Assembly (NCBI RefSeq): GCF_037975445.1
Contig: NZ_CP150254.1
Coordinates: forward strand, 2,974,001 to 3,038,000
DNA: 64,000 bases
Direction of reading: 5' to 3'
DNA from: Peribacillus sp. FSL P2-0133
Lineage (GTDB): Bacteria; Bacillota; Bacilli; Bacillales; DSM-1321
Part shown: positions 7,131 through 61,025 of the stretch, in pieces
How the letters are laid out: each line of letters begins with the position of its first letter
Position numbering within the stretch: the first letter of the stretch is position 1
Position numbers and translations under genes: made by a program
The notes under the pieces: generated by a model
Told to the model about the DNA's origin: nothing
Database searches by the model: none
The model's input: only the letters and a program-made list of their open reading frames with translations

Positions 7131-7205
7131 AACCAACCTGCCCCGTTAGTTCCATAAGAAAAAGAGCTGCCAAAGCAACTCTCTTATTCAAGTAAACCAG
7201 CTAAT
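7131..7205 (-). repeat. Interspersed terminator-like repeat, copy B, interrupted by IS110 copy 1
   Basis: AACCAACCTGCCCCGTTAG (7131-7149), then ATAAGAAAAAGAGCTGCC...GCAACTCTCTTAT, then ...ACCAGCTAAT where the IS begins; the remaining CACCAGTTAGTTG lies beyond the IS at 8777-8789. On the minus strand GAGTTGC-TTTG-GCAGCTC followed by TTTTTCTT is a terminator-type hairpin. Confidence 0.75.
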
Positions 7206-7325
7206 AGGTGTCAATATCTTTCTCTAATATTTTCATTTCCCTTATGATATACTATTTTTGACCATGCCAAATAACCCTCCAAAACCCTTTTGGAAGGATT
7301 TTTCTCTGTTTCACAAAACCGTTAA

Positions 7326-8528
7326 TTAGGCTAAATCTAGGAACGTTTCTTTTCTCTTTAATAAAGCATAAATCCAATGAAGCAACTTATTCATACAGGC
7401 AACGATTGACACTTTGGCAGGTTTTCCTTCTGATTTTTTCTTATCATAGAATGCTTTAAGCTTTTTGTTCCTTGAACTTCTTATGCCGCATAGTACGGCA
7501 AGATACAGAGAATAACGTAGTCTGCTCGAACCTCTTTTTGTAATACGATTAATGGTTGCCGTAAACTTACCCGATGAGTGAACACTTGGATCTACTCCAG
7601 CGAAGGCAACCAGTTTTTTCGGATGATTAAACCGATCGATTTCACCAATTTCAGAAATAATCGTGGCTGCGATTTTTTCTCCGATACCGGGAATCGATTG
7701 GATGATCTTATATTCTTCCAGTTCATTTGCCAGGGCCACTATACGATCTTCTAAATCAGAAAGATGTCCCTGGTAATGAAAAAGCAACTCAATATACATA
7801 CGAAGATTGATTACGTGACTTTCATACACGCTTTTTTGAAATGGATTTCTAGATGCGGAATCCATTATTTTTTTTGCTTTTTCACATGCCCATTCACCCG
7901 ATCGGCTAGAACAGAACTCTATAACACTCTCTGCTAGTCTACTTTCTCCGGCTGTTAATACCGCCTCTGAAGTAGGATATTCCTTTAACATCAATAAAGA
8001 AACCTTCGAATATAGATCCCCAAAAACCTTCCGGTATTCAGGAAACACTTGATCTAAAATGGTGTGAAACTGAAGTTTAGCTTCCACATACATATTCGTT
8101 ACGATTTCCTGTTGTCTGGACAAATTCCGAAGGTCTTATAGCTGAATTTCTCTAATTTTATGAGGTTCTAAATCCTCTTTGTAATACAGCACACACAACT
8201 GGTACGCATCGATTGCGTCTGTTTTTACCTTTCGTAAACTGGTCTTCTTTGCCTGATAAGAAATAATGGGGTTTAGTAAGATATATAGAATCCCTTGTTC
8301 CTCCAAGTATTGAATAACAGGAGTATGGTAATGCCCTGTAGATTCTAAAATGACCATAGGCATCTGCCCTGTCACTTCTTCAACCTCTTTTAAAAAGTCT
8401 AAAAAATGATCCAATTCCTCCTTGGTATGCTTCATTGAAAAGCTCTTCCCATACGGTTTAGATTGGTCTAAAAATGCCTGAACTTGGCTCTCTCCTTTTG
8501 CCACATCCAGACCAACAACTGGATTCAT
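7326..8528 (-). pseudogene. IS110-family transposase interrupted by one in-frame TAA
   Basis: The N-terminal DEDD (RuvC-like) half, starting MNPVVGLDVAKGE with D8, E62, D104 and D107, runs to a TAA at 8136-8138. The same frame continues after the stop as DLRNLSRQQEIVT into the C-terminal Transposase_20 half (IIQSIPGIGEKIAATIISEIG...), total about 400 codons. One base change (for example TTA to TAA) explains the interruption. A TTG five codons after the stop could restart translation but has no clear SD. The identical stop is present in copy 3. Confidence 0.85.
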
Positions 8529-8774
8529 TGTTTTTTCCTCCTCTACTTACTAACCAGTACCCCTAGTCCTCCATGTAGTGTCATAGCTTCGCTTGTTATA
8601 CGAAATCTACGTCCCAACCAGCCTCAAACATGTTTCTACAAGTAGGGGGCAGACAGTTTACTTCACGGGATCATGTCCCACGCACCCGTACGTCCTACCC
8701 TGGCTACTGATATAATAGATTCTATTAAAAAAAGGTCAACCAGTAATTTTTACTGGTCAACCTTATAATACGAA
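8529..8774 (-). ncRNA. Candidate bridge-RNA region of the IS110 element
   Basis: IS110 elements are known to encode a structured bridge RNA in the noncoding end upstream of the recombinase, with loops matching target and donor. This 5' noncoding end contains ACGCACCCGT (8680-8689), identical to 10 nt of the repeat family in which the IS lies, and ATACGAAA (8598-8605), identical to 8 nt at the element's own terminus (8768-8775). Short inverted segments are present, but I have not folded the RNA. Extent is approximate. Confidence 0.45.
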
Positions 8775-8867
8775 AGCACCAGTTAGTTGAAGAAGAAGGT
8801 GTTATTTTCTACTTAAATAAAAAGTAAACCTCTCTTAGAGTCTATAATCCAAAATTTATTCCCTGTT

Positions 8868-23124: not shown

Positions 23125-23724
23125 ATGGAAAAGAAAAAGCTTCACACAGACCCTCGCATACTCCGTACAAGACAATTAATTAAAGATGCATTTGTTGAAT
23201 TACTTGAGGAAATGGATGTGCAAAAAATAACGGTTAATCGATTGGCAGAGAGAGCAACCATCAATCGTGTTACCTTTTATCTACATTATCGTGATATTCC
23301 AGATATGTTGGAAAAGATGGCAGACGATATGATTGAAGACATTTCAACGATTTTTTGTAATACACCAACGGACCAGACATCCTCTGAAGAGAATAGTTGG
23401 AAAATAGTCGAAAATTTACTTGAGCATATAGCTGAACATTCGAATTTTTATAAAAACCTTTTGGCTTCTAAGAAAGTCCCTATCTTTAGAGAACGTCTAA
23501 CAATGTTTTTAAGGGAAAGGATAGTTACTAAGATAGAGGAAAACGGAAGGTCATCCCACATTCTAACTGAAATTGTAAAGGAAGACATTTTGATATGGTA
23601 TGAAACTTCAGCTTTAATAGGCACAATCGTTTCGTGGCTTCAAAATGATATGCCATATACTCCGACTTTTCTAGCGAAACAATTCTCTTTGCTTCACCAA
23701 AGGAGGATAAATGTAGAAAGTTAA
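23125..23724 (+). CDS. TetR/AcrR-family regulator
   Basis: ATG 23125 (AAGGAAAGAG upstream; the in-frame upstream extension to 22942 crosses the promoter region and is rejected). About 199 residues: N-terminal helix-turn-helix TRQLIKDAFVELLEEMDVQK...VTFYLHYRDIPDMLEKM, then a helical ligand domain with WYETSALIGTIVSWLQNDMP, typical of the TetR_C_8 group. Predicted repressor of the divergent DHA2 pump. A clear terminator follows 140 bases downstream. Confidence 0.85.
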   Translation: MEKKKLHTDPRILRTRQLIKDAFVELLEEMDVQKITVNRLAERATINRVTFYLHYRDIPDMLEKMADDMIEDISTIFCNTPTDQTSSEENSWKIVENLLEHIAEHSNFYKNLLASKKVPIFRERLTMFLRERIVTKIEENGRSSHILTEIVKEDILIWYETSALIGTIVSWLQNDMPYTPTFLAKQFSLLHQRRINVES

Positions 23725-23865
23725 TCATTTATAAAATGTACCTAATGTACCTATTATGGTTTCTAACTCTTGTATATCTAATAGATTACGCAAAAAATTC
23801 CAAAATGTTTTCCAAAATCAACTGGCTTATTTTTAGTGGACTTTGGTATAAAAACCGGAGTGTTT

Positions 23866-23894
23866 CCGTTCAGAAAACTGAACGGTTTTTCCTT
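23866..23894 (+). terminator. Intrinsic terminator
   Basis: Perfect CCGTTCAG-AAAA-CTGAACGG stem followed by TTTTTCCTTTTTTTT; probably ends the tetR transcript. Confidence 0.85.
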
Positions 23895-24149
23895 TTTTTT
23901 ATCATTTATCTCTCCCGTGCTACAAACTTTCTTGTGGAACTAACCTCCCTCTATAAACATTGATGTATCAACGGTTTGCACCACTCGGTGTATTAGGGGA
24001 ATTATTTTTTCATTCTACTTTTAAACAGAGTATTGAAATTCTGGTTTTTATTACTAAATTGAGCGTACGCTTCGCTAAAACTAATGGAAATCATTAGCTA
24101 TTTTCTCCACTTTGTGATGCACAATAGATCTCTGCGAAACTTATGATGA

Positions 24150-24317
24150 CGTACCCTCCCATGTCTCTTAGCGTCATTTGCGCTTACATTCCTTCGTTCG
24201 GTCTATTCATAAGGCAGAGGCCTGCTAAGCTGCCCCGGGGACTCTTGGTCTTAGTTTAGTAATGTTGCTGGCTTCTCCGTGTCATCCTTCTTGTTATAAA
24301 TCGATAGTTAGAAATGC
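24150..24317 (-). ncRNA. Candidate bridge-RNA region of the IS1111-like element
   Basis: In transposase orientation this 3' noncoding stretch contains AACTAAG (complement of 24250-24256) followed by CGGGGCAG (complement of 24230-24237). The second is identical to 8 nt of the target including the core dinucleotide, and AACTAA equals 6 nt of the other target arm. They lie within a stem closed by CTAAG/CTTAG. RNA extent and fold not computed; short matches could partly be chance. Confidence 0.4.
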
Positions 24318-25595
24318 TTACGCTGCCTCTGAGAGGCAGTAGAGATCCTTCATCATATTCTGCTCATTAAAATGGACTTTCTTTTTACAAATACCATGCA
24401 ATACTTTCAACAATTTACCACAGAGTACCACCATCGATTGCTTTCCGCGTAAGGGATTTTGTTGGCGTGTTGTGTAATATTCATGAAGCTGTTTAAACCC
24501 CTCGTTGTGACGAATGAGTGGTACTATTACTTTGAAAAGAATATATCTAAGTCGCTTTCTTCCTCGTTTGGAGATATGTTTTTGTCCCTTATGTTGACCA
24601 GATGAGTTTTCACGTAATGTTAATCCCGCTAGTTTAATCAATTGGCGTGGATTTTCATAAAGTGAAAAACTTCCAACTTCTGAAAGCAAATCAACAATGG
24701 TTGCATCTCCTAATCCAGGAACTGAAGCCAGCAGCTCATATTCCATAGTTGTTTGGGCCATTTCGGATAATTGACTATTCACAGATTCAATTTCGTTTTC
24801 TAGTAAGCGATACTGACGCAGGAGCGTGGCAATTTCATGTCGGGCCATCTGTGTCCCTTCTGTCAGTCCAATTGAGTTCGTCGCTGCTTCAATGAGTAGC
24901 TTTGCTTTTGGTAGCTGTGGGGCTCTCATTCCCTTTACCTTACGGTAAAGAAAGACAAGCTCCTCAGCACTTTTTCCATCGATATCCTGTGGCAACGGAG
25001 TCATTTCCAATGTAGCTAGAGCCATCTTTCCGAAAGCCGGAAAGACTTGAGTAAACTCGGGAAAATAACGATCAAGCCAACGAATGATCCGGTTTTTAAT
25101 ACTCGCTAAATCTTCCGTTAACTTTGAACGAAGAGTAGATCCGATACGAAGTTCTGCTTCTACTTCTTTTAATAAACGTGGATAGCTAAAACGCCCATCT
25201 TTCAATAAACGAGCGATGACTAATGCATCTTTTTTATCGTTCTTTGTCGGTAAATTATCGTCCAGTTCCTTCGATCGTTTGACATGCATTGGATTCACCA
25301 TGACTAGTGGTATGCCGTAATGATCTAAGAAATTAGCTAAGTTCATCCAGTAGTGGCCTGTTGGCTCAATTCCAACAATTACTTCTGTTTTCTTAGCTTC
25401 CTTCATCGTTTGACGAATCTTTTCATACAGGTGTTCAAAGCCCTCTTTTGATTGATGTACTGCGAAGGCTTTTTCTATCACGCGCCCTCGTTCATCAACA
25501 AAACAAGCGTAATGAACACGCTTGGCAATATCCATACCAACAACGAGTGTATTTTCAGTAACTTGATTAATTTTTTCATTCCATTTAAACTGCAT
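24318..25595 (-). CDS. IS110-superfamily transposase (DEDD recombinase), apparently intact
   Basis: Start chosen at ATG 25595, 8 bases after AAGGAGG; an ATG at 25640 is in frame but without SD. 425 residues: N-terminal RuvC-like DEDD domain with D22 (VVGMDIAK), E77 (GIEPTGHYW), D120 and D123 (KNDKKDALV); coiled linker around residues 250-290; C-terminal Transposase_20 domain LLASVPGLGDATIVDLLSEVG ... LTLRENSSGQHKGQKHISKRG with the conserved serine region. Enzymes of this family recombine DNA using a bridge RNA and both domains. No disruption seen, so this copy may be active. Confidence 0.88.
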   Translation of the reverse strand: MQFKWNEKINQVTENTLVVGMDIAKRVHYACFVDERGRVIEKAFAVHQSKEGFEHLYEKIRQTMKEAKKTEVIVGIEPTGHYWMNLANFLDHYGIPLVMVNPMHVKRSKELDDNLPTKNDKKDALVIARLLKDGRFSYPRLLKEVEAELRIGSTLRSKLTEDLASIKNRIIRWLDRYFPEFTQVFPAFGKMALATLEMTPLPQDIDGKSAEELVFLYRKVKGMRAPQLPKAKLLIEAATNSIGLTEGTQMARHEIATLLRQYRLLENEIESVNSQLSEMAQTTMEYELLASVPGLGDATIVDLLSEVGSFSLYENPRQLIKLAGLTLRENSSGQHKGQKHISKRGRKRLRYILFKVIVPLIRHNEGFKQLHEYYTTRQQNPLRGKQSMVVLCGKLLKVLHGICKKKVHFNEQNMMKDLYCLSEAA

Positions 25596-25782
25596 AGAGA
25601 AGTCCTCCTTGTTTGATGCTGAGTCAATGGTCGTTGACACTCATGCATCATACAAGAGGGCTCTTTTTCTTTCAAGACTTCGAACATCCTTCTAACAGGA
25701 ATGCTGCCCCGTTAGTGACAGTGACAAATGAAAAAGGCTGCCGCAGCAACCTTGAGTCTTGTACAAGAGGTAGAAATCACTT

Positions 25783-25980
25783 TCATAATTTGAATATGCC
25801 TGGTTGTTCTACATAGAACTCTATATACCCACATTTAGAACAAACATAAGGAAATACTTTGCTGTAAATCGGACTATCCTTAAAAAAACCTCTTGGTTTT
25901 TTGTTTATCTGAAATTCTCCTTGAATTCCAGAAATATAGGCCTTCGTAAGTTCGTTGCCGCATTTGCTACAAGTTTCCAC
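25783..25980 (-). CDS. Small zinc-ribbon protein
   Basis: 65 residues. METCSKCGNELTKAYISGIQG and YVCSKCGYIEFYVEQP supply two C-x-x-C knuckles of a zinc ribbon; this arrangement is common in short Bacillus proteins of unknown role (PF20097/DUF6487-like). It lies between the rest of the IS-interrupted repeat and repeat copy F. Confidence 0.7.
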   Translation of the reverse strand: METCSKCGNELTKAYISGIQGEFQINKKPRGFFKDSPIYSKVFPYVCSKCGYIEFYVEQPGIFKL

Positions 25981-26068
25981 TATTTATCATCCCTAATAAG
26001 CTATCGTATCCTACCCGCATTACTCTCTTTTATACGATTCCTAAACTAATAAAGTTTCAATCCTTCTT

Positions 26069-26150
26069 CAACAAACCTGCCCCGATAGTTCCATCAGAAA
26101 AAGCTGCCTTAAAGACAGCTCCGATCTTCAGCTAACGTACCCTTTAGTTA
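26069..26150 (-). repeat. Interspersed terminator-like repeat, copy F
   Basis: CAAACCTGCCCCGATAGTT, AAAAGCTGCC-TTAAAGA-CAGCTC, CAGCTAACGTACCCTTTAG. Ends 13 bases from the stop codon of the 26163-26657 gene. Confidence 0.8.
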
Positions 26151-26162
26151 AAGTATAGGATT

Positions 26163-26657
26163 TCACAATCCAACCATTGACACAACCAATTCATGTGACA
26201 TGCCAAGATGGTGGTATTTAATTATGACTCTGTCAATACTATGTTCATGCCCTAACGAAAGAGCATAAATAGTATCATCTTCTGTTGCAGTACCAGCATT
26301 TACTTTATCGAGTTGCTTTTGTGGGTCTGTCTTTGGTTTAAGAGTTATAGAATCTAATCCTTTGAAGGTATATTCACTTTCTTCTTCTCCATTAAAATGG
26401 TCAGAGATAATAAACCCTTTTGGATGATAACTCACTTGTAATTTCACTTTGGAGGGTACAACTTTATCATTGACAAGAACTTCTTCAATTTGAATATCCC
26501 CAAATGGACTTTTATTTCCTACCGAAACCAATTGTACCTGTCTATCATTCGCTGAAGCACTTGGATAAGCTACTAAGGGTTGGTTTAATTTCAAAAAAAA
26601 GAAAAAACCTATAAATAAAACCACAATACTAATAATACCTATTAACATTTTTTTCAA
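26163..26657 (-). CDS. Single-pass membrane or secreted protein of unknown function
   Basis: 164 residues. One N-terminal hydrophobic helix (residues 4-23) and an outer domain of ~140 residues rich in beta strand (VQLVSVGNKSPFGDIQIEEV ... VIIKYHHLGMSHELVVSMVGL). No cysteine or catalytic motif recognised. Flanked on both sides by terminator repeats, so it is probably a one-gene transcript. Confidence 0.65.
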   Translation of the reverse strand: MKKMLIGIISIVVLFIGFFFFLKLNQPLVAYPSASANDRQVQLVSVGNKSPFGDIQIEEVLVNDKVVPSKVKLQVSYHPKGFIISDHFNGEEESEYTFKGLDSITLKPKTDPQKQLDKVNAGTATEDDTIYALSLGHEHSIDRVIIKYHHLGMSHELVVSMVGL

Positions 26658-33139: not shown

Positions 33140-33230
33140 GTATCATTCACCCCACATTTATTGTGATTGGTTCATCAACAATGAAAAAGGCTGCCTCAGC
33201 AATCTCCCTTATTGAAGTAAACCGGCTAAT

Positions 33231-33934
33231 AGGATGTCAATATCTTTCTCTAATATTTTCATTTCCCTTATGATATATTATTTTTGGCCATGCCAAATAA
33301 CCCTCCAAAACCCTTTTGGAAGGATTTTTCTCTGTTTCACAAAACCGTTAATTAGGCTAAATCTAGGAACGTTTCTTTTCTCTTTAATAAAGCATAAATC
33401 CAATGAAGCAACTTATTCATACAGGCAACGATTGACACTTTGGCAGGTTTTCCTTCTGATTTTTTCTTATCATAGAATGCTTTAAGCTTTTTGTTCCTTG
33501 AACTTCTTATGCCGCATAGTACGGCAAGATACAGAGAATAACGTAGTCTGCTCGAACCTCTTTTTGTAATACGATTAATGGTTGCCGTAAACTTACCCGA
33601 TGAGTGAACACTTGGATCTACTCCAGCGAAGGCAACCAGTTTTTTCGGATGATTAAACCGATCGATTTCACCAATTTCAGAAATAATCGTGGCTGCGATT
33701 TTTTCTCCGATACCGGGAATCGATTGGATGATCTTATATTCTTCCAGTTCATTTGCCAGGGCCACTATACGATCTTCTAAATCAGAAAGATGTCCCTGGT
33801 AATGAAAAAGCAACTCAATATACATACGAAGATTGATTACGTGACTTTCATACACGCTTTTTTGAAATGGATTTCGAGATGCGGAATCCATTATTTTTTT
33901 TGCTTTTTCCCATGCCCATTCACCCGATCGGCTA
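33231..33934 (-). mobile_element. IS110-family insertion sequence, copy 2, truncated
   Basis: Same 3' end as copy 1 (GGCTAAT, AG core at 33231-33232, GATGTCAATATC). Only the last ~195 codons of transposase remain (33352 to about 33934); homology stops within ...GATCGGCTA and a serine-recombinase fragment follows. Its left side is a repeat of the second subtype (GGCTGCC...CTCCCTTAT, 33189-33212). The transposase half, the 5' noncoding end and the right repeat arm are gone. Confidence 0.85.
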
Positions 33935-58694: not shown

Positions 58695-59459
58695 TTTAAA
58701 ACTCCCCGGTACTATAATTATAATTCCTTCCCGTCATACTTAATGGTTCCATATTTTCATTTCGAACAACCTTCTAATTCATTATATTTTATTGTGTTCG
58801 ATTCTACATAATTGGGAAGATGATTTTTGGACATCCTTTAACATATTCATTTATTCTTAAAAGTGGTAAATCTCGATATACAATGAAGATTGTATACCTC
58901 ATTGTTTTTAAAGACCTTCATATTTTTATTGGTGGTCTTTTTATTCTTATTACATAAATGTTCAATTTCCTTATAAAGAGTTATTCCACAAAATGGACCG
59001 ATTGCTGAACAAAAGTAAAAAAGCAAACATTTCATAAATAAGTTATTATTTGTTCCAAAACTCGTCCTTTTCTGAACACGCTCAAATTCCCGTTGAAATG
59101 AATGTTTGTTACTTTAGGTGATAATTCCCACTTTTTTTAAGTGCTATTTTGCACGTATATAATTACTGTTACTTTTCATTTGTTTTGTCGTTTTTTTGTC
59201 ATAGAAAAAGGCGTATAGAAGGGGTACCGCCAACATTTCGGATTTTGTACGCTAAGCAAATCCCAGCAAAAAAGGCCGTTTCCTGTACGTTAGGAAATGA
59301 CTTTTTTTATTTCTCTTATAGTGCTAAAGCATCTGTTGAAAAAGAATCAACTGTAACTTTGAAATATAGATTGATCAAAATAGATTCTTTTCTAGTAAAC
59401 AATTTTTATAAAATAGATTGATTATTTTTAGCGATCCTTGTAGAACTAAACCAGCTAAT
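58695..59459. other. Intergenic region with relic repeats
   Basis: Holds a copy of the second repeat family (58992-59075), a solo IS4-like end GGGGTACCGCCAACATTTC (59222-59240) and a third hairpin of the GATTGATCAAAA family (AAAGAATC 59341-59348 / GATTCTTT 59383-59390). No gene supported; a 90-codon frame at 59149 has no SD or similarity. Confidence 0.45.
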
Positions 59460-61008
59460 AGGATGTCAATATCTTTCTCTAATATTTTCATTTCCCTTAT
59501 GATATACTATTTTTGACCATGCCAAATAACCCTCCAAAACCCTTTTGGAAGGATTTTTCTCTGTTTCACAAAACCGTTAATTAGGCTAAATCTAGGAACG
59601 TTTCTTTTCTCTTTAATAAAGCATAAATCCAATTAAGCAACTTATTCATATAGGCAACGATTGACACTTTGGCAGGTTTTCCTTCTGATTTTTTCTTATC
59701 ATAGAATGCTTTAAGCTTTTTGTTCCTTGAACTTCTTATGCCGCATAGTACGGCAAGATACAGAGAATGACGTAGTCTGCTCGAACCTCTTTTTGTAATA
59801 CGATTAATGGTCGCCGTAAACTTACCCGATGAGTGAACACTTGGATCTACTCCAGCGAAGGCAACCAGTTTTTTCGGGTGATTAAACCGATCGATTTCAC
59901 CAATTTCAGAGATAATCGTGGCTGCGATTTTTTCTCCGATACCGGGAATCGATTGGATGATCTTATACTCTTCCAGTTCATTTGCCAGGGCCACTATACG
60001 ATCTTCCAACTCAGAGAGGTGTCCCTGGTCATACGAAGATTGATTACGTGACTTTGATACACGTTTATTTGAAATGGATTTCGAGACGCGGAGTCCATTA
60101 TTTTTTTTGCTTTTTCCCATGCCCATTCACCCGATCGGCTAGAACAGAACTCTATAACACTCTTTGCTAGTCTACTTTCTCCGGCTGTTAATACCGCCTC
60201 TGAAGTAGGATATTCCTTTAACATCAATAAAGAAACCTTCGAATATAGATCCCCAAAAACCTTCCGGTATTCAGGAAACACTTGATCTAAAATGGTGTGA
60301 AACTGAAGTTTAGCTTCCACATACATATTCGTTACGATTTCCTGTTGTCTGGACAAATTCCGAAGGTCTTATAGCTGAATTTCTCTAATTTTATGAGGTT
60401 CTAAATCCTCTTTGTAATACAGCACACACAACTGGTACGCATCGATTGCGTCTGTTTTTACCTTTCGTAAACTGGTCTTCTTTGCCTGATAAGAAATAAT
60501 GGGGTTTAGTAAGATATATAGAATCCCTTGTTCCTCCAAGTATTGAATAACAGGAGTATGGTAATGCCCTGTAGATTCTAAAATGACCATAGGCATCTGC
60601 CCTGTCACTTCTTCAACCTCTTTTAAAAAGTCTAAAAAATGATCCAATTCCTCCTTGGTATGCTTCATTGAAAAGCTCTTCCCATACGGTTTAGATTGAT
60701 CTAAGAATGCCTGAACTTGACTCTCTCCTTTTGCCACATCCAGACCAACAACTGGATTCATTACCTTTACCTCCTCTACTTATTAACCAGTACCCCTAGT
60801 CCTCCATGTAGTGTCATAGCTTCGCTTGTTATACGAGATCTACGTCCCAACCAGCCTCAAACATGTTTCTACAAGTAGGGGGCAGACAGTTTACTTCACG
60901 GGATCATGTCCCACGCACCCGTACGTCCTACCCTGGCTACTGATATAATAGATTCTATTAAAAAAAGGTCAACCAGTAATTTTTACTGGTCAACCTTATA
61001 ATACGAAG
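59460..61008 (-). mobile_element. IS110-family insertion sequence, copy 3, degenerate
   Basis: Bounded by AG at 59460-59461 and 61007-61008, with ACCAGCTAAT on the left and CACCCGTTAGTTG on the right, as in copy 1. Very similar to copy 1 throughout, including the 5' noncoding end (ACGCACCCGT at 60913-60922) and the outer hairpin, but one A shorter at the right terminus. Confidence 0.85.
59581..60761 (-). pseudogene. IS110-family transposase, doubly broken
   Basis: Same N-terminal half MNPVVGLDVAKGE... and same in-frame TAA (60369-60371) as copy 1. A further 22-base deletion near 60027 (within ...CCTGGT/CATACG) shifts the frame in the C-terminal half. Confidence 0.85.
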
Positions 61009-61025
61009 CACCCGTTAGTTGAACA
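61009..61025 (-). repeat. Right arm of the repeat interrupted by IS110 copy 3
   Basis: CACCCGTTAGTTGAACA continues the family consensus after the IS; the left arm at 59449-59459 is CCAGCTAAT. It ends 14 bases from the stop of the DinB remnant. Confidence 0.65.

Follow-up and report, generated by a model that had tools for sequence, protein, structure and literature searches.

A predicted two-loop guide RNA in the 3′ noncoding end of an IS110-superfamily element matches the interspersed repeat that the element occupies in Peribacillus

Introduction

Two described groups of RNA-guided insertion sequences bear most closely on the locus studied here. In the IS621/IS110 bridge-RNA elements, as set out in the accessible parts of PMC11208160 and PMC11208158, the RNA presents a target loop followed by a donor loop, its guides address both target strands and a CT core lies within the target pairings; in IS621 this RNA is encoded upstream of the gene. 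The IS1111-type seekRNA elements ISEc11, ISPa11 and ISKpn4 instead take their RNA from the 3′ noncoding region and, in the accessible sections of PMC11187229, their guides run opposite to those of IS110 on the gene strand; ISPa11 targets a palindrome, REP. Donor-pairing bases have been predicted for IS1111 types too (PMC11208160, accessible part). The available text of PMC11187229 also describes IS110-type elements that have a 3′ noncoding region and no clear subterminal inverted repeats.

Here we analyze an element in a 64,000-nt stretch of the Peribacillus sp. FSL P2-0133 chromosome (NZ_CP150254.1, positions 2,974,001 to 3,038,000; hereafter the window, whose own numbering is used throughout). 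Like ISEc11, ISPa11 and ISKpn4, it appears to draw its RNA from the 3′ noncoding region and has the same order of guide matches, and like ISPa11 it is found at a palindrome; like IS621, it has a predicted target loop before a donor loop, guides for both strands and a CT core within the target pairings. It differs from IS621 as described in the accessible sources in that the RNA lies downstream of the gene, the core CT is on the strand opposite the gene, and the donor guides are not seen pairing with the core on both sides. From the IS1111 types in the sections of PMC11187229 at hand it differs in that no subterminal inverted repeats were found, in a transposase of 425 rather than 330–350 aa, and in a promoter-like site in its left end. 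The description of IS110-type elements having a 3′ noncoding region suits it, and it possibly belongs to that group.

Results

The element occupies positions 23947–25703 on the minus strand and, counted with one CT core, is 1759 bp long. It parts an interspersed repeat into a left half (AACTAAC plus the CT core, 23938–23946) and a right half (the CT core plus GCCCCGTTAG, 25704–25715); the flanks read AACTAACCT on the left and CTGCCCCGTTAG on the right from 25704, with one CT common to both. Noncoding DNA is unevenly divided around the gene: 371 nt lie downstream (the 3′ noncoding end, 23947–24317, minus strand) versus 108 nt upstream (the left end in the transposase frame, 25596–25703, minus strand, beginning CATTCCTGTTAG). 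An identical second full copy sits at C1:2816150–2817906 in the same kind of site, another copy of the repeat. Searching 36 genomes of the genus with the left flank gave eight matches, the element's own genome included, and in three of these the repeat is uninterrupted at the orthologous place (G041, G035 and G030, with left-flank identities of 89%, 85% and 77%; in G041 the start of the repeat has decayed). The original prediction, made from the sequence of the window, had described a complete element at a CT inside a repeat, and the flanks, the core, the second copy and the uninterrupted orthologous sites all confirm it. Past the repeat, the right flank (25704–25760) is unlike the loci to which the left flank is orthologous; probably the site has been rearranged or recombined.

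On the same chromosome (5.81 Mb, one contig) a 338-bp remnant of the noncoding end adjoins AGGTTAGTT, and among genus mates G023 carries two full copies and one deleted, G027 one, and G036 one deleted, with all readable ends at the same point of the repeat. Copies of an unchanged noncoding end at unrelated sequences had been named beforehand as a sign against guidance; none was found, and the one observation that counts in that direction is a 30-bp end fragment on the same chromosome, 93% identical and without a guide, which is not flanked by the repeat. The guides differ in relatives that occupy other sites, and the same noncoding end goes with the same repeat. Across the relatives, in which element ends were placed by motif, the core AG (gene strand) is present at 64/64 left-flank and 62/62 right-flank sites. 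The two identical full copies in the chromosome are the basis for calling the element perhaps active at present. The deleted G036 copy (L034/L071, contig 13) has a noncoding end that breaks off precisely at the guide CGGGGCAG and continues into GATAGCGG, which looks as if guide DNA had acted as target or as microhomology.

The transposase gene (24318–25595, minus strand) encodes 425 aa from an ATG, or 440 aa from an upstream GTG, and has a Shine-Dalgarno sequence, AAGGAGG, just upstream. Its product matches PF01548 (2.1e-37), PF02371 (1.7e-20) and NF033542 (230 bits, cut-off 140), and the only PDB sequences that it matches at E ≤ 0.01 are IS621 and ISCro4. Aligned with these two, and with the residue list in the accessible part of PMC11208158, the motifs GMDIAK at 20, GIEPTG at 75, NDKKDA at 119 and SSG at 331 can be read as the DEDD/Ser residues; the protein thus combines the DEDD RuvC domain and the C-terminal domain with an SG motif that define the IS110 superfamily. 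A promoter-like site, TTGAAA-17-TATGAT, lies inside the left end (25647–25675, minus strand; one found, 0.2 expected), and six of the seven members inspected have a similar site with a spacer of 17–18. A promoter created by the junction, sought by eye, was set aside. The gene's own AAGGAGG (25603–25611) would suit, as a target, the Shine-Dalgarno-aimed relatives described below.

The 3′ noncoding end is predicted to encode a conserved two-loop RNA of the bridge/seek type (24116–24286, minus strand). Guide regions were collected from 46 loci in named records, from an order-wide search in which 21 of 397 genomes matched at 1e-180, and from plasmid records; 69 distinct regions were parsed, 39 of which, after dereplication, form an alignment of 191 columns (A1). 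It reveals a constant scaffold, with a mean column identity of 85%, in which the two target guides are the variable part. A hand-drawn structure of 38 pairs with two internal loops leaves 98.9% of cells paired, a figure favored by its having been drawn on one member (L058), and sliding the 3′ partners cuts pairing to 27–39%. Six pairs have changed on both sides, in 42 cells (shuffles, 3.2 and 12.6). Against it count the further pair types, 16 versus 17.6 in shuffles, and one pair of the outer target-arm stem is non-standard in 11 of the 39 members, the window element included. RNAalifold, unaided, predicts the closing, apical and donor-arm stems; it lacks the outer target-arm stem and pairs columns 64–66 with 72–74 instead. 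The original prediction's expectation of a conserved structure over 24230–24260 was therefore borne out, with a target arm that RNAalifold draws differently, whereas the CTAAG...CTTAG stem in which it had placed the guides is not conserved. Rfam gave no match at E ≤ 1 for 23700–26200.

Within this predicted RNA, all on the minus strand, an apical hairpin GAC-CAAGA-GTC (24240–24250; helix 4 of the drawn structure, also found by RNAalifold) separates the two target guides. The donor loop holds a putative right donor guide GGAATG (24187–24192), the complement of the left end CATTCC, and a putative left donor guide GGGAG (24156–24160), the same as the right end ...GAGGG plus the AG core; both are invariant in A1, and the hairpin between them (24170–24184, helix 8) includes two pairs changed on both sides. 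A CT directly after the left target guide (24228–24229) may occupy the place of the IS621 handshake guide, judging from the accessible part of PMC11208158 and the alignment. Counting dinucleotides at this place as evidence for a handshake guide was set aside: the parsers required a C there (CA in one parser), so the count holds by construction and carries no weight. By eye, L182, L186, L183, L184, L187 and L079 have CA following the guide, and L080 and L185 have CT.

The left target guide is CGGGGCAG (24230–24237, minus strand), with the core AG at its 3′ end. Both it and AACTAA, the second guide originally proposed, occur once in the 371-nt noncoding end, and among 2000 dinucleotide shuffles of that end CGGGGCAG appears in 6, AACTAA in 409 and ACTAAACT in 23; the 8-mer is therefore telling and the 6-mer alone is not. 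One of the 2000 shuffles had CGGGGCAG no more than 60 nt away from one or the other right-guide word. Covariation was assessed in 64 of the 69 records (five without a left flank were dropped, and the flank of L030 was set by hand), with flank positions numbered −8 to −1 relative to the insertion point. In group A, the window element's own group, all 16 sites match at −7 to −1 through seven different 8-mers, and none of 2000 shuffles did as well; variants that match their sites include CGGTGCAG, CGAAGCAG, GGAGCAG, GGTGCAG and GCGGCAG. In group B, relatives that are 63–71% identical, the mean over 48 sites is 4.73 matches out of 6 at −8 to −3, versus 4.18 when shuffled (again 0/2000). Further examples from the two groups are TGAGTAG, TAAGAAAG, and TAGGAG in four G294 copies; misfits are L107, with 3 of 8, and L059 and L104 at inner positions. 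In the window element's group, the left guide covaries with the target flank base by base.

The right guide is best read as ACTAAACT (24253–24260, minus strand), which would pair with AGTTTAGT including the core AG and has weaker support than the left guide. It is the better reading because it spans the core and because the register of AACTAA is not kept in relatives (AACTTA, AACTCA), so that AACTAA, though present, was set aside. In a register test on 61 of the 69 records, ACTAAACT had the highest total and, in the comparison of group A with group B, exceeded 500/500 shuffles; registers 3 and 6 did likewise with lower totals, and no clear excess was seen within group A (p = 1.0) or within group B (p = 0.11). 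Covariation of the right guide emerges in a related lineage, 36% identical, in which 25 sites average 7.68 of 9 versus 6.81 shuffled (0/5000), as do its 16 distinct pairs (0/5000). Guide–target shuffles treat kin as independent, and collapsing to distinct pairs weakens the left-guide signal, from 0/5000 at 26 sites to 125/5000 with 14 distinct pairs in the 36% lineage, and in a 45% lineage from 5/5000 at 18 sites (or 3/5000 at 19, with L054 and its one guide mismatch included) to 497/5000 with six distinct pairs. The right guide of the 45% lineage, assessed without the tandem copy L133, gave 209/5000. Among single members of further lineages, Paenibacillus L187 fits its guides by reading (12 bases left, 6 right), as do Alicyclobacillus L183 (GGTTAGTT, right guide) and Priestia L182 (AAACTAG, left guide). 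Read from sequence, the predicted RNA thus carries guides for both target strands, as expected of the IS110 superfamily, the left covarying in these elements and the right in the 36% lineage.

The repeat in which the element lies is abundant, as first noticed from two other places in the window. The window holds 12 matches to its start at up to 3 mismatches (0.01 expected), and AACTAACCTGCCCCGTTAGTT has 103 copies in the chromosome at the same threshold (72 plus, 31 minus; reversed control 0), in units of roughly 80–90 bp. The copies are clustered in a few regions, those in the window including 7132, 26071, 26940, 27850 and 29366. With dnaA at 337 of the chromosome, repeat orientation follows the replichore in 99 of the 100 listed copies with a data-derived cut that puts the terminus at 2.81 Mb, and in 94 of 100 when the cut is placed at half the chromosome. 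This orientation suggests single-strand or lagging-strand mobilization, as in REP or IS200-like elements.

Within the genus, this repeat is used by four IS110-type lineages. Besides group A they are the 45% clade; the 36% clade, which inserts directly after ...GGTTAG or ...CCCGTTAG of the repeat; and a lineage of about 26% identity whose noncoding RNA region lies on the 5′ side. The last is represented in the window by three minus-strand copies inside the same repeat family (about 7182–8788, 33208–33934 and 59437–61020), of which two are nearly full-length but interrupted by stops and one is partial. At L047, L019, L128 and L130, elements with 3′ and 5′ RNA adjoin in one repeat copy with about 9–10 bp between them. 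To the right of L133 (G010), in the 45% lineage, AG is followed by another copy's left end, making a head-to-tail tandem with one core.

Group B carries guides for Shine-Dalgarno sequences, and most of its insertions lie in them. Among 61 sites (43 B, 18 A) that have a right end and no less than 220 nt of downstream sequence, a start codon opening a frame of 50 or more codons follows the core by 4–12 nt at 30/43 group B sites, versus 0/18 in group A, 93/361 at AGGAG motifs in the same loci and 142/2040 at random places. By inspection, a Shine-Dalgarno-like sequence would stay in place after insertion, formed by the right end GAGGG with AGG. Since relatives at 63–71% identity carry such guides and mostly sit at such sites, target guides appear to have been rewritten naturally between the repeat and Shine-Dalgarno sequences on one scaffold. 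A tree of 56 transposases (four of 60 dropped as short; bootstrap not settled, some branches long) recovers group A as one clade (100/100) that joins B elements, and the 45% clade, whose insertion point in the repeat is identical to that of group A, lies apart, so that repeat targeting probably arose more than once. The five labels need six changes on this tree, with four the least possible. Hits to named elements were on plasmids, most of them enterobacterial.

On the gene strand of the window element the top-strand match lies 5′ of the bottom-strand match. Read on the CT strand, the left guide comes first and the right guide second, the target loop precedes the donor loop and the core lies inside both target guides, which is the arrangement published for IS621. 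In the 5′-RNA lineage of the same genome, the left guide precedes the right on the gene strand itself, and the core lies within GTT. Of the 26 copies parsed in this lineage, 17 have a right flank; the left guide covaries (26 copies, 1/5000), and the right guide is no better than shuffles within the lineage (17 copies, 2416/5000).

Discussion

Our analysis argues strongly that this is an autonomous IS110-superfamily element whose DEDD/Ser recombinase is very probably directed by an RNA encoded in the element's 3′ noncoding end. The RNA would be transcribed together with the transposase; in its target loop, two guides would pair with opposite target strands and overlap at the AG core (gene strand; CT on the window's plus strand), and in the window element this loop appears written for the palindromic repeat AACTAACGGGGCAG/GTTAGTT. 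The donor loop would pair with the joined element ends, presumably in a circular intermediate with the junction ...TATAGAGGG-AG-CATTCC..., and strand exchange would take place at CT. This reading draws, at the level of sequence, on the complete element and its exact site, the uninterrupted orthologous sites, the two-loop structure and the left guide–target covariation, and it upholds the original proposal that the RNA programs insertion into the repeat.

The transposase protein might instead read the repeat by itself, the guide matches being due to chance or common descent, and it would agree with that view that two groups defined by their targets, group A and the 36% lineage, each form a single transposase clade. 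Yet single-base changes in the guide go with the same changes in the flank inside one target group, and the target guides vary on a scaffold that, like the donor loop, does not change, leaving this explanation scarcely credible. Guides copied from the flanking DNA after insertion, with the match a result rather than a cause of the site, are hardly more plausible and very unlikely in our view. The deleted G036 copy lends them something, its junction with the repeat half falling exactly at the guide, and therefore guide and target DNA can recombine; however, one guide serves many unrelated sites that agree in little beyond the guide, as in the four G294 copies and at 36 sites with the guide TAAAGGAG.

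How the element should be classified is a separate matter, since it was originally called IS1111-like. Its layout and guide order do fit: the long noncoding region lies downstream of the transposase gene, and the top-strand match precedes the bottom-strand match, as published for IS1111 types. The departure from the IS621 guide order, which the original prediction had remarked on, is thus a trait already reported for IS1111-type elements in the accessible part of PMC11187229. Its ends and its protein do not fit. In the outer 40 nt no subterminal inverted repeat of the IS1111 kind (about 7–17 bp) was found in any of six members, the best being 5 bp, as in shuffles, and the transposase, at 425–440 aa, exceeds the roughly 330–350 aa given in the same source. 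True membership of the IS1111 family is accordingly improbable, and for these two reasons we place the element in the IS110 superfamily and do not file it as IS1111. Nor does it follow IS621 throughout, as the RNA is not upstream of the gene and the bottom-strand match comes first only on the opposite strand; it shares with IS621 the two-loop RNA, with the target loop 5′ of the donor loop, and the CT core, here on the plus strand. We would describe it as an IS1111 layout on a long IS110-type transposase, a combination that appears new for a mechanism that is known.

The simplest reading of this mixture may be that, in 3′-RNA elements, the cassette of gene plus RNA is flipped with respect to the element ends, since such an inversion alone would explain the ‘reversed’ guide order. 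A different mechanism of target reading, with no flipped cassette, is possible but to our mind rather doubtful. It was raised as a possibility in the accessible text of PMC11187229, and it gains from the dinucleotide at the handshake place, which in groups A and B, among rows that the parser selected for C, is mostly CT and not the CA that the donor TG asks for. Against it, the order of guides on the CT strand, the core and the order of loops all agree with the available description of IS621, and two lineages with the RNA on opposite sides use the same repeat. A search of mostly open-access journal papers found none on cassette inversion. If correct, the inversion would be a simple resolution of the opposite guide order in IS1111-type and IS110-type elements.

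Taken together, these observations allow a wider reading, to which we give about as much credence as doubt: a repeat biased by replication strand would serve as a landing pad for at least four RNA-guided lineages, with guides that are naturally rewritten and a reversed order that reflects cassette inversion. Several of these lineages would then read different stretches of the repeat, with some adjoining in one copy.

The Shine-Dalgarno sites of group B have a possible counterpart in IS900, a mycobacterial element that reportedly inserts beside start codons. The target motif of this IS110-family element, CATGNNNNNNTCTCCTT (PMC8141618), corresponds on the other strand to AAGGAGA-N6-CATG, and as a motif it resembles group B sites. 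For targeting of Shine-Dalgarno sequences by a bridge or seek RNA, the same kind of search, of mostly open-access journal papers, found none. The elements assembled here amount to a natural experiment in guide rewriting, with one scaffold, a constant donor loop and many target guides, most of which match their own site. They point to a group of RNA-guided transposons aimed at translation start signals, in which the Shine-Dalgarno-like sequence supplied by the inserted right end would stand before the downstream gene.
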